Shown here piece by piece: positions 2,661 to 32,685 of a stretch of DNA of 34,334 nucleotides. The DNA is from Paracoccaceae bacterium. GTDB taxonomy: Bacteria; Pseudomonadota; Alphaproteobacteria; Rhodobacterales; Rhodobacteraceae. The DNA is taken from positions 1-34,334 of the forward strand of contig JAGWVA010000042.1 of NCBI GenBank assembly GCA_028875855.1, written 5' to 3'. The number at the start of each line of letters is the position of its first letter. Position 1 is the stretch's first letter. The notes beneath the pieces are model-generated. The model saw only the letters and a list, made by a program, of their open reading frames with translations, was not told the origin of the DNA and ran no database searches. Position numbers and translations under genes: made by a program.

Positions 2661-2667
2661 CAATCTA

Positions 2668-2767
2668 CGTCAGGGGAGTCCCGCCTTGGGGACTGAGAGG
2701 CTGACAGGGGGTAACCCCGGTGAAGCGACCCTTTGAACCTGACCCAGTTGATGCTGGCGTAGGAAGA
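2668..2767 (+). promoter_or_regulatory. TPP riboswitch (THI element)
   Basis: The conserved core is plainly visible: GGGGAGTCCC, then CTGAGAGG near 2693, then the ACCCTTTGAACCTGA segment near 2739, and GATGCTGGCGTAGG closing the aptamer. This RNA binds thiamine pyrophosphate and represses the downstream thiamine genes. It lies 137 bases ahead of thiC on the same strand. A hairpin overlapping the thiC ribosome binding site suggests translational rather than transcriptional control. Confidence 0.95.
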
Positions 2768-2795
2768 CCGAAGGGCATTTCCGCGAGTCTCATAG

Positions 2796-9724: not shown

Positions 9725-9768
9725 CGTGCCGAAGTCATGCCGCCTAAAACGGCGAAGTTACAGGCACG
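9725..9768 (-). promoter_or_regulatory. Hairpin between B12 aptamer and transporter gene (expression platform)
   Basis: CGTGCC at 9725-9730 pairs with GGCACG at 9763-9768, and CGCC/GGCG at 9741-9754 forms the inner stem. The outer arm touches the end of the aptamer's closing helix, so the two structures could influence each other. The ribosome binding site (about 9704-9715) is just downstream. Confidence 0.4.
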
Positions 9769-9949
9769 ACAGGCAGGTCTCCTGGCTCGCGGGTCATCCC
9801 GAACGTCCCGGCCTTCCCGGTTTCCCAGTGGCCATGCGGGCGACGGTCGCCGCTACAGTTGCGGGGGCAGCCACGGATCGGGTCCTTCTGAGGTCTTCCC
9901 TACCATGTTCCCTTTTGATCCACCCGGCTTTGCCGGCGCGGAACCTGTC
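9768..9949 (-). promoter_or_regulatory. Cobalamin (B12) riboswitch upstream of the NiCoT gene
   Basis: Read on the minus strand, the element shows AAAGGGAA, then GGCTGCCCCCGCAACTGTAG, then CCACTGGGAAACCGGGAAGG, and the B12-box AGCCAGGAGACCTGCC. The ends GACAGG and CCTGTC form the closing helix. Adenosylcobalamin binding would repress the transporter 65 bases downstream, limiting cobalt import when B12 is sufficient. Confidence 0.96.
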
Positions 9950-9955
9950 TTATTC

Positions 9956-9984
9956 ACTATGGCTGGGGTTGCTTATGGTGTCCA
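9956..9984 (-). promoter_or_regulatory. Promoter of the riboswitch-NiCoT transcript
   Basis: On the minus strand TGGACA (9984-9979, 5 of 6 to consensus) is followed after 17 bases by CATAGT (9961-9956, 4 of 6). The predicted start near 9949 coincides with the first base of the riboswitch. It sits directly behind the cobF stop, so read-through from cobF is also possible. Confidence 0.55.
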
Positions 9985-23834: not shown

Positions 23835-23903
23835 CGATGCGCGCCTGTGCATGGCCGCGCACACGTCGGTCACGGCACACCCCGGCCGCCCGTTTAGTCT
23901 CGA

Positions 23904-24085
23904 CGCTGGCAGGTCTCCCGGCTTACGGATATGGGCATTTGCCCTGCGGCGGCCCGCCTTCCCAGCATGATGCCAGTGGCAATCGGCAACCTCTCCGGTC
24001 ACGGTCGCGGGGGCGGCTGCGCTTTGAGGATTTTGGCACCCCTTGTCGCATTCCCTTTTGGCCTGTCGTATATCAGGCACCAGCG
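23904..24085 (-). promoter_or_regulatory. Cobalamin (B12) riboswitch upstream of DUF1636-cobW-cobN operon
   Basis: On the minus strand the element shows AAAAGGGAATGCG, CAGCCGCCCCCGCGAC, GCCACTGGCA, GGGAAGGCGGG and the B12-box AGCCGGGAGACCTGCC. CGCTGG and CCAGCG form a likely closing helix. It would shut off DUF1636, cobW, cobN, cobG, cobH, cobI and cobJ when adenosylcobalamin is plentiful. Confidence 0.95.
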
Positions 24086-24103
24086 CTGCTTCACCTGAAG
24101 CAG
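24086..24103. promoter_or_regulatory. 18-bp perfect inverted repeat between cobO and the riboswitch
   Basis: CTGCTTCA and TGAAGCAG are perfect 8-base arms around a two-base spacer (CC). It lies between the riboswitch's 5' end and a minus-strand TTGACA (24121-24116), at about the -10 position, and 35 bases before cobO. It could be an operator for both divergent transcripts or a hairpin at the 5' end of one of them. Confidence 0.45.
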
Positions 24104-24756: not shown

Positions 24757-24953
24757 GTGGCTGCCGCTCGCTGCTTCGCCGCACCTACCGAGGCCCTTTG
24801 TCAGGATGGAAGAAACGCCATGTCCACTTTGCCTAGCTTTGGTTTTTTGGCTTTACCGCTACAAGTATCGATAAAGGCCAAAGGTCAGAAAGCAGTATCT
24901 TTATGGCCCAGCCTAACGCTTGCGTTGCACCACTTGGCCTTAGCGGGGGGCTT

Positions 24954-26399
24954 ATGCCAGCACTCATGATCCAAGGTGCAGGCTCAAACGTCGGCAAATC
25001 TATGCTGGTCGCTGGGCTTTGCCGAGCTGCGCGGATGCGAGGGTTGAAGGTCGCCCCTTTCAAGCCGCAGAACATGTCGAACAACGCTGCTGTCACCGCC
25101 GACGGCGGAGAAATCGGTCGCGCGCAGGCCCTCCAAGCCCGTGCGGCCGGTCTCGAACCAATGGTGGACATGAACCCTGTCCTGCTCAAGCCCGAGACAG
25201 ACGTCGGTGCGCAAGTCGTTGTTCACGGGCGGCGTATAGCTACGGTGAAAGCCCGGGAATACGCGGCAATGAAGCCGCAGCTGATGTCGCCGGTCTTGGA
25301 GTCATTTCGACGATTGGAGGCGGCGCAAGACCTCATAATTGTAGAGGGGGCGGGAAGTCCGGCTGAAGTCAACCTCCGCTCAGGCGATATTGCCAATATG
25401 GGGTTTGCTCGCGCCGCCGATGTGCCAGTCTTGCTCGTCGGAGATATAGACCGGGGCGGGGTCATCGCACAGATCGTGGGAACACAAGCCGTGCTTGACC
25501 CCGCTGACGCCGAGATGGTCGGTGGTTTTTTGATAAACAAGTTTCGCGGTGATCCACGGCTTTTTGATGACGGATACCGTCTGATCGAGGAGCGGACAGG
25601 TTGGCGCGGGTATGGTGTCCTCCCATGGTTTGCAAGCGCCTCTCGGTTGCCGGCCGAAGATGCTCTAGACCTTGGCCGCGCGCGAACTGACGGGCCATAC
25701 CGCGTGGTCTGCCTTGTGTTTTCCCGGATCGCAAATTTCGATGATCTCGACCCGCTCGCCGCCGAACCAGGTGTAAGCGTCACCATGCTTCGGGCGGGCG
25801 AGGCGCTGCCCGGTGATGCTGACCTGGTTATACTTCCGGGTAGCAAGTCGACCCGCGGCGATCTTGCCTTTATGCGCGCCCAGGGATGGGACGTCGACCT
25901 TGAGGCCCACCGTCGACGTGGTGGAGCAGTCCTTGGGATTTGTGGCGGATTTCAGATGCTGGGAAGGAGGATTGACGATCCGGAGGGCATCGAAGGACCA
26001 GCGGGAAGCAGCACCGGCCTTGGATTGCTCAATATCGAAACCGTCATGGGAGGGGACAAAACGCTAACGCGCGTCTCGGCCCGTCACGTTGGCACAGGAG
26101 CGATATTTGATGGCTATGAAATCCACATAGGTCGCAGTCGGGGCGACGATTGCGCACGCCCATTCGCGCATGTCGCGGGGCAACCAGAGGGTGCTACATC
26201 CGCTGACGGCAGAGTGATGGGAAGTTATCTTCATGGTATGTTCTCCGCAGATGAATTCCGCCGTGCTTTTCTTGAGGGACTTGGCGCTCAAAGCTCCGGC
26301 CTTGATTATCGAGCGGGCCTGGAGGCCACACTCGACGATCTTGCAGCGCATCTGCGGTCGCATCTGGATCTTGATGGAATCTTTAAGCTTGCCCGTTGA
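24954..26399 (+). CDS. cobQ: Adenosylcobyric acid synthase CobQ
   Basis: CobQ amidates the b, d, e and g side chains of adenosylcobyrinic a,c-diamide, using glutamine and ATP. The 481-residue protein starts [16 protein letters not shown], a P-loop-like dethiobiotin synthetase-type domain with [11 protein letters not shown]. It ends with a class I glutamine amidotransferase domain, nucleophile Cys330 in [10 protein letters not shown], followed by GSYLHGMF. The start at 24954 matches where homologues begin; an ATG at 24903 would add 17 residues, and neither has a strong ribosome binding site. It is convergent with the CobC-BluB gene 14 bases away. Confidence 0.94.
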
Positions 26400-26413: not shown

Positions 26414-28003
26414 TCAGCGGATCTCCCACTCGGTCATGACGTTTTGCTGCCAGCCATTCCGGTGCAAGAGCGGAGTGTCGTCACTAAAGGCTGGCCAGCC
26501 TAGACAGAGGTATGCTGCGAATTCCCAGCCTTTCGGAACCTCGAACAGCGCCTCCATCCGGCCGGGCTCGACAATTGAAACCATTCCTAGCCCAAGATTT
26601 TCTGCTCGCGCCGCCAGCCAGAGCGTATGGATGGCCATCGCCGTCGACTGTCTTAGCGTCTCCGGCATAGTCTGGCGGCCGAGGCCATGGCCCTCTTCCG
26701 GATCGGTAACGGTGAAGACCGCGAACTGTACCGGCGCGGATTCAAGGCCGGCGAGTTTGAGCTTTGTATAGGTTTGCGCCTGTTCGCCGGAATAGAGCGT
26801 CGCCGCCGCCCCGTTGCAGCGCGCAAATTCGACGCGGACAGCTGAGCGCAGCCCTGCATCTTCTACTCGTATTATCCTCCAGGGTCGTGCATTCCCGACC
26901 GACGGCGCGCTGTCTATCGAGGCGCGAAGGCGCCGGAGCACTTCCTCAGGAACAGGGTCGCGCCGAAAATGTCGCACATCGCGGCGCCAGTGGAGAAGGC
27001 GCGATAGTACTTCCGCTTCTTCGGTGCTGAAAGTCGTTGGACCCGCGAGTGCCGCTTCCAGGCGCTGCCATTCGTTTTCATTTCCTGGTAAGCCGAGGCG
27101 TAGCCAGTCCGGTCTTGCCGGAAAAGTTCGCGACCAGATCTTGTGGCGAGCGAGTCGCGCTTGAGCGGCCGCGCCCTCTGGCGTGCGATACAGGCGGAAA
27201 AGACTTGTACCACCGATCATTTCCCAGCCTCCACGAGCAATCAAGGTGTCGAGCCGAAGGGCATCCCTAGCGAGGCGCTGGCGTGTAGTCTCGGCCCATG
27301 CAGTGTCAAGCAGCGCACGCCGCCCGATCTCCAATGCCGGGCCCGAGACGGCCCAGGGTCCAGCGCGCTCTGCCATTGCAGAGATATCGCCAACGGGACC
27401 TAAAGCAAAACCAAGCCGAACTCCGGCGAGACCCCAGAACTTGCCGAAGGATCGCAGCACAATCAACCCGGGGCGGCCGCAGTCGGCAGCGAGCGAAAGC
27501 GCCGGATCTGGGTCGCCGAAGCTCTCATCAACGATCAGTCGTCCGACCTGCGGCAAGAGCGTGAGGAGTGCCTCAGGCCTCGTTCGTCGACCATCGGGGT
27601 TGTTTGGATTAACTACGACTGCGAGATCGGCTCCGGCGAGCTCATCAAGCTGCGCGACCTCTTCCACCACCCACCCTGCCGCGCGAAGGGCAGCAGCATG
27701 TTCGTTATATGTTGGCGCGAGGACACGCGCGCGCCCAGTTGGCGCGACATACGGAATGAGCTGTATCGCTGCCTGCGCGCCTGCGAGCGCAACCATCGGT
27801 GCCTCTGTGGCCCAAGCGAAGCGCGCGGCTTCGATCAGCTCTTCTAAGGCCCGTTTCGTAGGGAGAGCGGTCCATGACTCTGATGGCATAGGGGGCACTG
27901 GCCATGGCTGCCGGTTGATGCCAGTCGAAAGGTCAATCCAATCTGCGGCCTTGCCTCCGAACCCTGCGATTGCCTCATCCAGATTGCCGCCGTGATCGCG
28001 CAT
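26414..28003 (-). CDS. cobC-bluB: Fused CobC (threonine-phosphate decarboxylase-like) and BluB (5,6-dimethylbenzimidazole synthase)
   Basis: This 529-residue protein joins two cobalamin enzymes in one open frame. Residues 1 to about 322 form a class I/II PLP aminotransferase fold of the CobC/CobD type: VVNPNNPDG at 130-138, DESFGDPD, and the PLP lysine Lys188 in SFGKFWGLAGVRLG. It probably supplies the aminopropanol phosphate arm. Residues from about 324 form a BluB flavin-destructase: RRDVRHFRR with the presumed catalytic Asp342, APSVGNARPWR, and GLGMVSI with Ser476, and a GWEFAAYLCLGWP segment. There is almost no linker. The ATG at 28003 has GAGG five bases upstream and lies seven bases after the cobD stop. 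No frameshift is suggested; the frame is clean throughout. Confidence 0.92.
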   Translation of the reverse strand: MRDHGGNLDEAIAGFGGKAADWIDLSTGINRQPWPVPPMPSESWTALPTKRALEELIEAARFAWATEAPMVALAGAQAAIQLIPYVAPTGRARVLAPTYNEHAAALRAAGWVVEEVAQLDELAGADLAVVVNPNNPDGRRTRPEALLTLLPQVGRLIVDESFGDPDPALSLAADCGRPGLIVLRSFGKFWGLAGVRLGFALGPVGDISAMAERAGPWAVSGPALEIGRRALLDTAWAETTRQRLARDALRLDTLIARGGWEMIGGTSLFRLYRTPEGAAAQARLARHKIWSRTFPARPDWLRLGLPGNENEWQRLEAALAGPTTFSTEEAEVLSRLLHWRRDVRHFRRDPVPEEVLRRLRASIDSAPSVGNARPWRIIRVEDAGLRSAVRVEFARCNGAAATLYSGEQAQTYTKLKLAGLESAPVQFAVFTVTDPEEGHGLGRQTMPETLRQSTAMAIHTLWLAARAENLGLGMVSIVEPGRMEALFEVPKGWEFAAYLCLGWPAFSDDTPLLHRNGWQQNVMTEWEIR

Positions 28004-28010
28004 CTTTTCC

Positions 28011-28952
28011 TCAAAGAGTTCCCACAAATAACAGGACTACCGCCAGAACCAATAGTGTCCGGCGGTAAAGCCCGAGTGCTTTTGAAATGCCAATTGGATC
28101 GGGATCTCGTCCCTTCGCGTTTAACCAAGGTTCGTCAGAGAGCGTATCTCCGTAGAAGCGGGGACCGGAGAGCCGAATGCCAAGCCCACCAGCCATTGCC
28201 GCCTCAGGCCAGCCCGCGTTTGGGGATCGGTGTCTACCCGCGTCCTGCAACATCGATTTCAACGATGCACCTGGACGAGGTGAGACCAAAGCAAATAGCA
28301 ATGCGCACAAGCGCGCAGGTATCAGGTTTGCCACATCGTCGATCCTTGCGGCAGCCCAGCCGAAGGCTTCATGCCTTGGTGTTCTGTGGCCGATCATGGA
28401 ATCGAGAGTGTTTACCGCCTTGTAGCCTGCGATTCCCGGCAGGCCAAAAATAGCTCCCCAAAACAACGGCGCCACGATGCCGTCGGAGGCGTTTTCTGCC
28501 AAGCTCTCGATGGCCGCGCGCGCGACGCCGGCTGCGTCGAGTTGCTCCGTATCCCTCCCAACGATCATGGAAACTGCACGGCGCGCACGGGGTAGGTCGG
28601 CCTTGGCCAAAGGATCCGCTACCCTGCCGACATGCTCGTCGAGCGACCGCGCCGCAACAAGCGGCCAGGCGAGAACTCCCGAGAGCACGACCCCAAACCA
28701 ATTACCGGGTAATAGGGTTGTGATACCGGCCGCGACGAACGCTGTCAGAGTGATGACGATCAATGCCGCTACGAGCCCCGAGAGCCTGTCACGCATTGGT
28801 TGAATGCCCGCACTGTTCCACGTGTTGTCGAGCCAGGCGATCAGCGCACCGAGCCAGACGACGGGATGGCCAACGCGGCGATAGAGGCAATCGGGCCAAC
28901 CAAGTGCCCAATCGACCACCAGCGCAACTGCCATTGCTGTCGCCATTGTCAT
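28011..28952 (-). CDS. cobD: Adenosylcobinamide-phosphate synthase CobD (CbiB)
   Basis: CobD/CbiB is the integral membrane enzyme that links the aminopropanol phosphate arm to cobyric acid. The 313-residue protein has several hydrophobic helices and the family motifs HPVVWLGALI, RRAVSMIVGRDTEQLD, ESLAENASDGIVAPLFW, GYKAVNTLDSMIGH and GWPEAAMAGGLGIRL. The ATG at 28952 overlaps the stop of the upstream kinase (ATGA); 88 upstream codons of the frame belong to that gene. The order kinase-cobD-CobC fits a shared job in the arm-building branch. Confidence 0.94.
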   Translation of the reverse strand: MTMATAMAVALVVDWALGWPDCLYRRVGHPVVWLGALIAWLDNTWNSAGIQPMRDRLSGLVAALIVITLTAFVAAGITTLLPGNWFGVVLSGVLAWPLVAARSLDEHVGRVADPLAKADLPRARRAVSMIVGRDTEQLDAAGVARAAIESLAENASDGIVAPLFWGAIFGLPGIAGYKAVNTLDSMIGHRTPRHEAFGWAAARIDDVANLIPARLCALLFALVSPRPGASLKSMLQDAGRHRSPNAGWPEAAMAGGLGIRLSGPRFYGDTLSDEPWLNAKGRDPDPIGISKALGLYRRTLLVLAVVLLFVGTL

Positions 28953-29749
28953 CCCTGATACCCAATCCGGAAACGTACGATATGACGAAAACCCGCATCC
29001 CGAAGAGCCGCAGGCGTCGTTTCTGGTACTGTTCCCGGCGCAAAGATTAACCCACGTGCGGCCCCTGTGTGTGCGATGGTAAAGCCGAGCGCTCCGGTTG
29101 CGTGAGCCAAAGCCTCTGTTGGATCGTCTGAGGGGCCACGCAAGGCGAGTGTCCGACGTGCCGATTCCGAAGCGAGATCCGCAGCCTTTGAGAGATCGCC
29201 GCAGGCGGCTGGCCAAGCCTTGGCCAGATCAGCTATATCTGGGAAATTAACATCCTTTGCATCAGTTCGCCGCATTGGCCCAAAGAAACCCCCGATAATC
29301 TCCATTCGCGGTGGATGTGGAAATCTCGCCAGCACGCGACCCTCGCGAGAGGCCCAAAGGAGTCGCCCCGGATCCGACAGCATGAGCGGATCGACCGCGC
29401 CTTCCGTCTCGAGACAAGCCAGCATGATGGCATCTGGGTCTCTGGCACCCGCGACAAGTGCAAGCGCCACGCGCGCTGCAGTCGAGGCGCCTGCTCCGCC
29501 ACCGGCCGGCATGTCGAGGCGTAGAGCAAACCTTCCCGCTGGTCGCAGTCCAAGGCGCCGCAATAGGTAGGCGGCTTCGGACTGAGTAAGGACCTTTGCA
29601 TCCGGCTGGTGTAGTACGAAGGCGCCAGACACTCGCTGCGCGCGGGCAAATAGCGTCGGACAAGGGAGCGTAACTAAACCCACCGGTCCGTTGCGCCCGA
29701 TGCGCCCTTGTAACAGTTCACCGAAATGCCCCGGAACAACGACTTGCAT
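28949..29749 (-). CDS. GHMP kinase, PduX-like (probable L-threonine kinase)
   Basis: The 266-residue protein begins QVVVPGHFGELLQG, and residues 81-90 form the GHMP kinase P-loop-like PAGGGAGAST, followed by a helix. This layout and the neighbours suggest L-threonine kinase (PduX), which makes L-threonine phosphate, the substrate of the CobC domain encoded two genes downstream. That assignment rests on family and context rather than on a unique motif. The ATG at 29749 lies five bases after the phosphatase stop; there is no strong ribosome binding site. The stop overlaps cobD. Confidence 0.8.
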   Translation of the reverse strand: MQVVVPGHFGELLQGRIGRNGPVGLVTLPCPTLFARAQRVSGAFVLHQPDAKVLTQSEAAYLLRRLGLRPAGRFALRLDMPAGGGAGASTAARVALALVAGARDPDAIMLACLETEGAVDPLMLSDPGRLLWASREGRVLARFPHPPRMEIIGGFFGPMRRTDAKDVNFPDIADLAKAWPAACGDLSKAADLASESARRTLALRGPSDDPTEALAHATGALGFTIAHTGAARGLIFAPGTVPETTPAALRDAGFRHIVRFRIGYQG

Positions 29750-29754
29750 CAAGG

Positions 29755-30339
29755 TCAAGACAACGACCGATTGGTGAAGCTTATGGACCAAACCCCTTTT
29801 GTCACTGCCCGCAGCAGCGTGGCCGAGAGGGGCGCGATCTCAAAGCTCAGCCCCGCAGTAGGCGCTCCGAGTGCCAACCCGAGCGCAGCCCTGATGGTTC
29901 CCGCATGGGCAACGACAACGACAGTGCCGCCCGTTGTCAGTCCTTCCAGTGCGGGCGTCGTCCTGGCAAACATATCAAGAAAGCTTTCTCCAGACGGTGG
30001 GCGATGTCTCGCAATTTCTGCCCGTTCGAGCGTGCCCAAGTCTGGAATATCCCTCGGCAAGAGCCCCTCCCAGTCCCCAAAATCTTGTTCCCAAAGTCGG
30101 GGATCGCGCACAGCCGCTTGTTCGGGGAAAAGTGCTGCCGAAGTCTGCATGCAGCGGCGCGCGGGGCTAGTCACTAGGCGGGCGTTCGTCGCAAGCTGGG
30201 CCATTGTCGTGCGCGCCCGATTGAGTACCTCGTCTCCAGGCAGATGTGCGGCAGGATCGCTCCTTCCCGAAAGTCGTCCGTTAGCGTCGGACGGCGCATG
30301 ACGGATCAGAATCAAATTCGTCGGTTCTGCTCCGGACAC
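29755..30339 (-). CDS. cobC: Histidine phosphatase, probable alpha-ribazole phosphatase
   Basis: The 194-residue protein has LIRHAPSD near the start (His14, the phospho-histidine in the RHG/RHA motif of the phosphoglycerate mutase superfamily), RRCMQT, the acidic WEQDFGDWEG and a second histidine in VVAHAGTIRAA. In cobalamin clusters such proteins dephosphorylate alpha-ribazole phosphate or the final product; the symbol follows Salmonella usage and must not be confused with the CobC of the fusion. The start is uncertain: GTG at 30339 is chosen, an upstream TTG at 30390 lacks a ribosome binding site. It diverges from cobP. Confidence 0.82.
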   Translation of the reverse strand: MSGAEPTNLILIRHAPSDANGRLSGRSDPAAHLPGDEVLNRARTTMAQLATNARLVTSPARRCMQTSAALFPEQAAVRDPRLWEQDFGDWEGLLPRDIPDLGTLERAEIARHRPPSGESFLDMFARTTPALEGLTTGGTVVVVAHAGTIRAALGLALGAPTAGLSFEIAPLSATLLRAVTKGVWSISFTNRSLS

Positions 30340-30404
30340 GGTCTGTTTTTTCCCTTTTCCTGTGGGCAAATTGGTGATCTCTGCAGCCAAAGAGGAGAGG
30401 CGGC

Positions 30405-30905
30405 GTGATACTACTCATTACAGGCGGTGCGCGCTCGGGCAAGAGCAGCTATGCAGAGAGGCGGGTTGCCGAGCTTCCGGGGAGGCCTTGCTATATTGCC
30501 ACCGCCGAGATCTTCGACGTCGAAATGGCCGAGCGAGTGGCGCTTCATCGCAGTCGTCGCGGTCCGGAATGGCGCGAGCATGAGGCGCCGATCGACCTTC
30601 TTGCTGCCCTGACCCAGACCGACGGCGAAGGCCCCCGCCTTGTCGATTGCGTAACGCTGTGGCTGACGAACCTGATGCTCGTAGAGCGCGACTGGCAGGC
30701 AGACCTTGCTGCGCTCCTTAATGGTTTGCATTTGCAATCAAGCCCTGTGATTTTCGTTACAAACGAGGTGGGACTTGGAATAGTCCCAGATAACCCGCTC
30801 GCCCGCGCGTTTCGTGATGCGGCAGGCATCGTAAACCAAGCCCTCGCGGCCTCGGCTGACGAAGTGCAATTCGTCGTCTCAGGCCTGCCCATGAAGGTTA
30901 AATAA
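30405..30905 (+). CDS. cobP: Adenosylcobinamide kinase/guanylyltransferase CobP (CobU)
   Basis: CobP phosphorylates adenosylcobinamide and then transfers GMP to it. The 166-residue protein has GGARSGKS (residues 7-14), His48 in ALHRSRRGPEW as the likely GMP-accepting histidine, and VDCVTLWLTNLM and VTNEVGLGIVP, all diagnostic. It starts with GTG at 30405 behind GAGGAGAGG. Its TAA shares one base with the cobT ATG. It heads the plus-strand cobP-cobT-cobS lower-ligand operon and diverges from the phosphatase gene, leaving about 65 bases for both promoters. Confidence 0.95.
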   Translation: MILLITGGARSGKSSYAERRVAELPGRPCYIATAEIFDVEMAERVALHRSRRGPEWREHEAPIDLLAALTQTDGEGPRLVDCVTLWLTNLMLVERDWQADLAALLNGLHLQSSPVIFVTNEVGLGIVPDNPLARAFRDAAGIVNQALAASADEVQFVVSGLPMKVK

Positions 30906-31927
30906 TGTCTGCGACGATATTTCCCGCGGCGTCTTTTGCCGAATTGCGAGCTCGACTAAACGACCTCCCTTCTACCGACGTTCGGAGCATCGCCGCAGCC
31001 CGAGTGCGACAGGACAACTTGACGAAACCTCAAGGGGCGCTCGGCCGGCTTGAGGAATTGGCAATCTTCATGGCAGGCTGGCAGGGCTGCGAGCGACCCG
31101 TACTAAAGCGCGCGCAGGCGGTCGTCTTCGCCGGAAACCACGGAATTTGTCGGCAAGGCGTGAATCCATTCCCTCAAGAAGTGACCGCGCAAATGGTGGC
31201 GAATTTCCGCCGCGGTGGAGCGGCAATCAATCAACTCTGCCGGATCAGCGGGGCGGACCTTTCAATCATCCCGCTCGATTTGGATCTGCCGACTCATGAT
31301 TTCACCGAAGATTATGCGATGACCGAACTTGAGGTGCTCGATGCTATGGCTCGCGGTGCGGCGAGCGTCGACACAAACTGCGACATCATCCTGCTGGGAG
31401 AAATGGGGATCGGCAATTCGACAGTAGCGTCGGCTCAGGCCCGCGCTTTATTCGGTGGAACGGCCTGGGATTGGGTGGGCCCCGGTACCGGGGCAGATGC
31501 CGAGAAAATTGCGATTAAAGCGCGCGTAATCGAAGCTGGAATTGACCGCCATAAGCAAGTCATCGACAATCCATTCGTTATTTTGGCGGCTTTTGGTGGG
31601 CGTGAACAGGCGGCTATTTGCGGAGCCATTCTTGCCGCTCGAATGGCGAGGATACCAGTCCTGCTGGACGGTTTCATTTGCACTGCCGCAGCATCGATCC
31701 TCGCGCCTTTGGGTATCGGAGCGCTCGACCATTGTTTGGTGGGGCATAGTAGCGCTGAGCCTGGCCATCGCATGCTTCTGTCTGCAATTGGCAAGAAGGC
31801 GATCCTTGATCTTGGAATGAGGCTGGGAGAGGGCTCGGGCGCTGCCATAGCGCTTGGCATTGTGCGTGCCGCTTTGGCAGCGCATGAAGGCATGGCGACC
31901 TTTGCAGAAGCCGGGATTTCCGTCTGA
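30905..31927 (+). CDS. cobT: Nicotinate-nucleotide-dimethylbenzimidazole phosphoribosyltransferase CobT
   Basis: CobT makes alpha-ribazole phosphate from dimethylbenzimidazole and nicotinate mononucleotide. The 340-residue protein has LTKPQGALGRLE, VVFAGNHGIC, LGEMGIGNST, VILAAFGGREQAAI and RLGEGSGAA with Glu309 as the likely catalytic base. It fits directly with the BluB domain, which makes the dimethylbenzimidazole. ATG overlaps the cobP stop by one base, and its stop overlaps cobS by one. Confidence 0.96.
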   Translation: MSATIFPAASFAELRARLNDLPSTDVRSIAAARVRQDNLTKPQGALGRLEELAIFMAGWQGCERPVLKRAQAVVFAGNHGICRQGVNPFPQEVTAQMVANFRRGGAAINQLCRISGADLSIIPLDLDLPTHDFTEDYAMTELEVLDAMARGAASVDTNCDIILLGEMGIGNSTVASAQARALFGGTAWDWVGPGTGADAEKIAIKARVIEAGIDRHKQVIDNPFVILAAFGGREQAAICGAILAARMARIPVLLDGFICTAAASILAPLGIGALDHCLVGHSSAEPGHRMLLSAIGKKAILDLGMRLGEGSGAAIALGIVRAALAAHEGMATFAEAGISV

Positions 31928-32685
31928 TGGCGAGAGCATGGATCCGATCCCGTATTGACGAAACGAGGTTGGCGCTAATTTTGCTTACTCGGCTCCCGGT
32001 TGGGCGGCTGAACTCGGCACCTCCACTTTCGGCTGCGGCATGGGCTTATCCGCTTGCGGGAGCCGTGGTCGGAATAGTCTGTGGAGTGGCATTCCTTTCA
32101 GCACAATGGTTGGGTCTCCTTCCGTTGCCTGCAGCGATTATCTCGGTTGCAGTCGGTGTGGTGACCACTGGTGGCATGCACGAGGATGGGTTAGCCGACT
32201 TAGCCGACGGTTTCGGTGGTGGTGGCGATCGGGCTAGGAAGCTTGAAATCATGCGCGACAGCCGTGTCGGAAGCTACGGTGTAATCGCGCTTTGTCTCGC
32301 GCTGTTCCTGCGTTCGGTGTTGCTGGCCGAAGTTTTGCCGGGCCATCATCCGATTTTCACCCTCATCGCTGTTGGTGCTTTAGCCCGCGCACCGTTACCC
32401 TTCCTGATGCGGATTTTGCCCGCAGCCCGGGACGATGGTCTCGGCCATTCCGCGGCGTTCCGGATCGGGACTGCACAGGCGATGGTGGGCGGGATGATTG
32501 GGTTGCTGCTGGCGGCGCTTTTCCTACCCGCTTACTTCTTTGGAACGATTTTTGCGTCTGTCGCGGCCGCTGTTATGACGGGCTATTTGGCGCGCTGTCA
32601 GATTGGCGGCTTCACCGGAGACGTCCTTGGGGCCGCGCAGATTGCTTGTGAGTTGGCGGTGCTGTCGACGCTCGCGTCTGGCTAA
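31927..32685 (+). CDS. cobS: Adenosylcobinamide-GDP ribazoletransferase CobS (cobalamin synthase)
   Basis: CobS joins adenosylcobinamide-GDP with alpha-ribazole (phosphate) at the membrane, completing adenosylcobalamin (phosphate). The 252-residue protein has multiple hydrophobic helices and the diagnostic GGMHEDGLADLADGFGGG at about residues 82-99, followed by KLEIMRDSRVGSYG. The ATG shares one base with the cobT stop. This is the Salmonella-type CobS (CobV in Pseudomonas), not the chelatase subunit of the same name. No clear terminator follows. Confidence 0.95.
   Translation: MARAWIRSRIDETRLALILLTRLPVGRLNSAPPLSAAAWAYPLAGAVVGIVCGVAFLSAQWLGLLPLPAAIISVAVGVVTTGGMHEDGLADLADGFGGGGDRARKLEIMRDSRVGSYGVIALCLALFLRSVLLAEVLPGHHPIFTLIAVGALARAPLPFLMRILPAARDDGLGHSAAFRIGTAQAMVGGMIGLLLAALFLPAYFFGTIFASVAAAVMTGYLARCQIGGFTGDVLGAAQIACELAVLSTLASG

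Follow-up and report, generated by a model that had tools for sequence, protein, structure and literature searches.

A rare cobC-bluB gene fusion in a cobalamin biosynthesis cluster of Paracoccaceae and its probable origin from an overlapping gene pair

INTRODUCTION

In cobalamin biosynthesis, the aminopropanol arm and the 5,6-dimethylbenzimidazole (DMB) branch meet at CobS. A preliminary description of a 34,334-nucleotide stretch of DNA from a Paracoccaceae bacterium (contig JAGWVA010000042.1; hereafter the window) had proposed that one enzyme of each branch, a CobC-type PLP decarboxylase and a BluB flavin destructase, are encoded as a natural fusion in one clean 529-codon frame with almost no linker. 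It placed the meeting of the two branches only at CobS, which is right by established knowledge, and suggested that the fusion might organise the loop enzymes or balance the supply of both building blocks. The locus raises the question of whether this gene is real, how rare it is, how it arose and what the joining of the two enzymes achieves.

RESULTS

A single intact frame encodes a CobC-type and a BluB-type domain

The gene lies on the minus strand and runs from an ATG at 28003 to a TGA ending at 26414, giving a stop-free frame of 529 codons that is open upstream as far as a TTG at 28027. Its parts are as follows.

26414..28003, minus strand: cobC-bluB fusion gene, 529 aa (frame and two NCBIfam matches)
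27044..27994, minus strand: CobC-type threonine-phosphate decarboxylase domain, aa 4-320, with PLP lysine Lys188 (TIGR01140 above cut-off; best phmmer match PDB 9jfb)
27032..27043, minus strand: junction, aa 321-324 (GPTT), the gap between both profile matches
27035..27037, minus strand: codon 323 (ACG), the place of the bluB ATG start in the sister lineage
26426..27031, minus strand: BluB (5,6-dimethylbenzimidazole synthase) domain, aa 325-526, with Asp342 and Ser476 (TIGR02476 above cut-off; PDB 2isj)

The NCBIfam search showed that aa 4-320 match the whole of TIGR01140 (profile positions 1-331 of 331) with 321.2 bits against a cut-off of 290.55, and that aa 325-526 match positions 1-202 of 205 of TIGR02476 with 264.6 bits against a cut-off of 150. 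A frame with full-length matches to two families (E 7e-96 and 4e-79, respectively) is no chance result, and only about four residues separate the matches, so that the frame, the two domains and the near absence of a linker all stand as first described. Pfam placed Aminotran_1_2 in the N-terminal half and Nitroreductase in the C-terminal half; with aminotransferase and nitroreductase domains the only ones found by Pfam and NCBIfam, the polypeptide contains no CobT domain, and cobT is a separate gene (30905-31927).

The closest solved relatives by sequence were the threonine-phosphate decarboxylase 9jfb (E 2.8e-64) and the BluB 2isj (E 7.5e-34), the latter presumably from Sinorhizobium meliloti. 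In a 65-row alignment, Lys188 (motif SFGKFWG) was invariant in all 37 CobC-bearing rows, and Asp342 and Ser476 in all 33 BluB-bearing rows, with five fusion rows counted in both totals; beyond aa 262, the C-terminal tails of rows with only a CobC part were scattered by the aligner, and the residue counts come from columns away from there. In the chain record of 2isj, Asp342 and Ser476 fall opposite positions 35 and 170; on the assumption that this chain carries a tag of three residues, these would correspond to Asp32 and Ser167 in S. meliloti BluB. The N-terminal half thus combines a whole-profile match above cut-off, the PLP lysine and an aminotransferase-type fold, as in threonine-phosphate decarboxylases of the CobC/CobD type, and the C-terminal half combines a profile match above cut-off with equivalents of the catalytic Asp32 and Ser167 of BluB. 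From these features, the predicted activities are threonine-phosphate decarboxylation by the CobC domain and formation of DMB from FMNH2 and O2 by the BluB domain.

In the structure models, too, the N-terminal half is CobC-like in fold and the C-terminal half BluB-like, as expected. In the Foldseek comparison, 9jfb matched the second model with a TMt of 0.88 and 40% identity. A BluB fold was found at rank 29 with the first model, and its assignment is based on that match together with the sequence; the 50 Foldseek rows shown for the second model were all CobC- or aminotransferase-type chains, with no BluB entry among them. Low confidence at aa 287-308 in the first model resulted from the scattered tails of the CobC-only rows. 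The second model (m83d58e22a8a3; 24 rows) closed this stretch, with a mean pLDDT of 80.1 versus 85.5 for the first model; it was weak at aa 333-342, 437-440 and 508-526, and its pLDDT fell below 50 at aa 322-326 in the junction region. With a pTM of 0.55 and 0.59 in the two single-chain models, the relative placement of the domains is unreliable.

The fusion gene sits in a large aerobic cob cluster

The order of the cluster is cobF, cobA, cobB, cobM, cobE, cobL, cobK, cobJ, cobI, cobH, cobG, cobN, cobW, DUF1636, cobO, cobQ and cobC-bluB, followed by cobD, a BluE-like gene, a histidine phosphatase gene, cobP, cobT and cobS. Gene names follow family matches or the orthologues in the annotated cluster of Acidiphilium, and some letter names are our assumption. 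The genes around the fusion are listed below.

24903..26399, plus strand: cobQ (cobyric acid synthase), named from the annotated Acidiphilium orthologue (83% identical), convergent with the fusion gene
28011..28952, minus strand: cobD/cbiB, adenosylcobinamide-phosphate synthase (TIGR00380 above cut-off; ATG 28952 chosen among start candidates)
28949..29749, minus strand: putative BluE-like L-threonine kinase (position and GHMP-like PAGGGAGAST motif)
29755..30390, minus strand: histidine phosphatase, alpha-ribazole phosphatase-like, start not settled (PF00300; TIGR03162 at 87 bits, below the cut-off of 162.9)
30405..30905, plus strand: cobP/cobU kinase-guanylyltransferase (NF004469 above cut-off)
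30905..31927, plus strand: cobT, the user of DMB (TIGR03160 above cut-off)
31927..32685, plus strand: cobS, the meeting point of both branches (71% identical to the annotated Acidiphilium adenosylcobinamide-GDP ribazoletransferase)

The upstream neighbour of the fusion gene is cobD, whose stop is separated from the fusion ATG by 7 nt. The name BluE-like for the gene at 28949-29749 is our presumption from the GHMP-like motif and the position; Pfam and NCBIfam gave no match for it, and the PDB search gave one chance-level match. An orthologue of this gene adjoins cobD in all four relatives for which the region was at hand, despite its lack of a Pfam or NCBIfam model match.

Two cobalamin riboswitches were found in the window (9755-9963 and 23891-24099, both on the minus strand), and none was found directly upstream of the fusion operon in the window at the gathering threshold. 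The first precedes a gene for a NicO-family transporter and the second the DUF1636-cobW genes; a TPP riboswitch (2662-2782, plus strand) precedes a thiC-like gene, named by eye.

Five intact fusions are under purifying selection in both domains

The searches brought up five sources with an intact fusion, namely the genome of the window, Solirhodobacter olei Pet-1 (88% amino acid identity to the window fusion), the metagenome-assembled genomes (MAGs) WY4.bin28 (83%) and SKS4.bin26 (88%), and plasmid pACMV1 (87%). All five have an ATG-to-TGA frame of 1590 nt with no internal stop. A stop or frameshift near 27040, which would have undone the preliminary description, was looked for and not found; a local sequencing error there is excluded because the frame recurs in four other assemblies, and the fusion is natural. 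It is likewise hardly conceivable that assembly or sequencing error joined two genes, given the same frame in five assemblies and changes concentrated at third codon positions (83, 59 and 360 variable sites at codon positions 1, 2 and 3).

Whole-gene dN/dS was 0.05-0.13 over the ten pairs, the ratios being rough for the four pairs that include the window, where dS exceeded 1.3, and it was low in both domains. The linker (aa 319-326) was the least constrained stretch, with noisy values from eight codons. The fusion has been kept over up to 25% DNA divergence. At the sequence level, both domains are thereby shown to be under purifying selection, which is evidence for the importance of each domain and not for that of their fusion.

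In the genome of the window (99.97% complete), each family had one match above cut-off, both inside the fusion gene; the decarboxylase model matched at 10 further places and the BluB model at one, all more weakly and below cut-off. The three other fusion genomes and the pACMV1 record each had one BluB match (E 1e-20) and one CobC match (E 1e-60), both within the fusion, the search for Acidiphilium covering the plasmid and not the rest of the genome. BP8.bin108, which was also scanned for such copies, is the unfused genome G001 of the genus. An inactive domain is highly improbable, given that each domain scores above its curated cut-off, retains its key residues and has a low dN/dS, and that the genome has no second copy above cut-off.

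The fusion is real but rare

Within the genus, the fusion was present in three of seven genomes (G000, G004 and G005) and separate adjacent genes in one (G001), and the other three (G002, G003 and G006) gave no match at E 1e-30. Since the genus holds fused, split and no-match states and the split copy is not sister to the fused ones, these results suggest that the cob cluster has been gained and lost within the genus. Among the matches listed for the family sample, ordered by E-value, a stop-free full-length match occurred in one of 394 genomes, the window's own, and 274 genomes had some match at E 1e-60. The window's own genome was also the only fused one among 385 in the class sample (34 with a match at E 1e-70) and 398 in the phylum sample (39 with a match at E 1e-75). 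The three samples overlap, the family level has mostly one genome per genus, and very divergent fusions would be missed. Of 72,556 plasmid records, 96 matched at E 1e-30, and one covered at least 80% of the query, namely pACMV1 of Acidiphilium multivorum AIU301.

A genome-contig scan with a single fusion protein as query found nothing. The scan with three fusions as query, whose two N-terminal patterns bias the sample, gave 80 named loci from 86 relatives, of which three were fused and 18 had bluB directly downstream as a separate frame; in the other 59 no bluB was found within 1.5 kb downstream, a few of these being on short contigs. The match in genome G273 over aa 2-529 was rejected as a fusion, because it contains an internal TGA and corresponds to two adjacent genes, the TGA being directly followed by an ATG. 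Taken together, the fusion is real but rare, and the possibility raised at the outset that it is widespread is not borne out by the counts by clade.

In 12 of the 80 named loci (L083, L090, L093, L094, L098, L104, L107, L112, L115, L117, L130 and L136, including Tabrizicola, Gemmobacter and Pseudorhodobacter), a second BluB-type gene, 33-38% identical, begins about 1.8-2.5 kb before the cobC end. Those sampled in the BluB tree formed a separate branch.

The fusion probably arose once from an overlapping gene pair

The BluB tree, built from 49 rows, placed all the fusions in one clade (100/98), which together with the unfused pairs of Allgaiera indica, Acidimangrovimonas sediminis and an uncultured Defluviimonas formed a clade with 100/99 support; the split copy of the genus (G001, L133) was not sister to the fused copies. 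For the CobC tree, 7 rows that were long or distant were dropped from a set of 126, and of those without a neighbouring bluB roughly every third was kept, which left 65 rows. Here the fusions again formed one clade (100/100) with the same three pairs as sister group (96/92), the bootstrap being not settled. A quick tree of all 126 rows gave a single origin for the fusion label. Inside the fused clade the trees disagree, the BluB tree putting the window at the base and the CobC tree grouping it weakly with pACMV1. The fusion probably has a single origin.

In the three sisters, the bluB ATG lies 17 nt before the end of the cobC stop, out of frame. The distance from a conserved Ala codon to a conserved BluB Phe codon, counted by eye, is 25, 25 and 22 nt in the sisters versus 24 nt in every fusion, a net difference of a single base modulo 3. 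The bluB start codon has been lost in all five fusions, being ACG in the window, AAG in Solirhodobacter, Acidiphilium and SKS4, and GAG in WY4. In the other adjacent pairs, the bluB start lies between 17 nt before and 9 nt after the end of the cobC stop, many with ATGA or TGATG, and we infer that such close or overlapping spacing is the layout expected of translational coupling. These comparisons of sequence support a probable origin of the fusion from an overlapping, out-of-frame pair through a net one-base frame change within the overlap and loss of the bluB start.

At codon 315, an in-frame ATG is present in three of the five fusions (Solirhodobacter, the SKS4 MAG and Acidiphilium), and these could, judging by this codon, also make free BluB. 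In practice, two separate proteins might be made, either through a second translation start inside the frame or through a cut at the junction. Such an outcome would agree with the purine-rich stretch, seen by eye, upstream of the codon-315 ATG in these three, with the use of this ATG as bluB start in the pACMV1 gene table and with the low model confidence at aa 322-326. However, codon 315 is CTG in the window and CTT in WY4, the window fusion has no in-frame ATG, GTG or TTG between codons 299 and 342, and the native bluB start is lost in all five, making separate proteins improbable. At the fusion locus of pACMV1 (NC_015178.1, 65327-66916), the gene table lists only bluB, starting at codon 315, and leaves the CobC half unlisted though the frame is intact; the table used is incomplete and the original record may differ.

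DISCUSSION

The evidence points to a genuine bifunctional polypeptide that very probably co-produces two activities. The protein would be made as one chain with both activities working. The N-terminal PLP domain would decarboxylate L-threonine O-3-phosphate to aminopropanol phosphate for CobD/CbiB, a reaction established for the family, with activity of R. capsulatus CobC in the available part of PMC6249242, and the C-terminal domain would use O2 and reduced FMN to form DMB for CobT, as is established for the BluB family (PMC7242693, in the part available). The main effect would be an obligate 1:1 output of two loop-building activities, presumably a small step past the tight coupling of neighbouring genes already seen in relatives. 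Channelling or direct hand-over between the domains is unlikely, because aminopropanol phosphate goes to CobD and DMB to CobT, and the streams join only at CobS, several steps later.

Loop assembly is membrane-associated, and the fusion might act as a scaffold that ties BluB to the CobC-CobD module and to this assembly, with a kinetic gain over the free enzymes. The gene order BluE-like, cobD, cobC-bluB would suit such a scaffold, as would the persistence of the fusion over its range of divergence in a cluster common to another order. Yet the product streams meet only at CobS, the junction is poorly constrained and the genes remain separate in 30 distinct unfused pairs of neighbours; a scaffolding role is an unlikely reading. 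As for the benefits first proposed, nothing beyond co-expression emerged, and the data fit equally well a frame slip fixed in an overlapping pair. Co-production of the two activities by one bifunctional chain remains the preferred reading.

The fusion is also found outside its order. Solirhodobacter olei belongs to the Paracoccaceae (Rhodobacterales), whereas Acidiphilium is a member of the Acetobacteraceae, in another order. The cob clusters of S. olei and of pACMV1, a plasmid typed as conjugative, aligned over 22,876 nt in three blocks with 92.1% identity and in the gene order of the window. Since the sister lineages of the fusion are Paracoccaceae, we infer that pACMV1 most likely acquired its copy from a donor of the Rhodobacterales type. 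In the available part of a study of Acidiphilium genomes, about 7% of the inferred horizontal transfers came from Rhodobacterales (PMC7677001); the words cobalamin and vitamin B12 are absent from its main text. That the fusion is an adaptive unit tying flavin destruction to the demand of corrin-ring completion, with its cluster selected in transfer between Rhodobacterales and Acidiphilium, is quite unlikely.

The locus captures a gene fusion beside its unfused nearest relatives, with an overlap joined by a small frame change and a lost start codon still recognisable. It is also a natural case in which to ask whether cobalamin output changes when two enzymes from separate B12 branches are joined. 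Gene tables may list only half of a fusion, as for pACMV1, so that pathway surveys may call CobC absent.

Each of the two enzyme families is already known, and the protein is a new fusion of known enzymes. A description of a CobC-BluB fusion, or any characterisation of one, was not found in the open-licence literature, whose coverage is incomplete, and an earlier mention is possible. The full-length CobC domain is shared with stand-alone CobC/CobD proteins (R. capsulatus CobC; PDB 9jfb), which have no BluB attached, and the BluB of Sinorhizobium meliloti (PDB 2isj) is a separate protein. The cobC-bluB pairs of the Paracoccaceae Allgaiera, Acidimangrovimonas and uncultured Defluviimonas have the same order and orientation and are sister sequences, but there the genes are two overlapping frames. 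In bifunctional CobBC (NF053748), a CobC-type domain is likewise fused to a B12 enzyme, but the partner is CobB, and the window protein scored 95.2 bits against the cut-off of 950. CobC2 of the M. extorquens plasmid pCMU01, given as 519 aa in PMC3621897, was considered and set aside, as bluB is a separate gene there. The BluB/CobT2 fusion of Propionibacterium freudenreichii, the activity of which is reported in the title of PMC4657239, is rather widespread in Actinobacteria, with few isolated entries elsewhere, according to the available part of that paper. There too, BluB is joined to another late B12-pathway enzyme in one polypeptide. As far as that part of the paper goes, its partner is CobT and BluB is N-terminal, with a proline-rich spacer of about 34 aa, whereas in the fusion described here the partner is CobC and BluB is C-terminal, with almost no linker.
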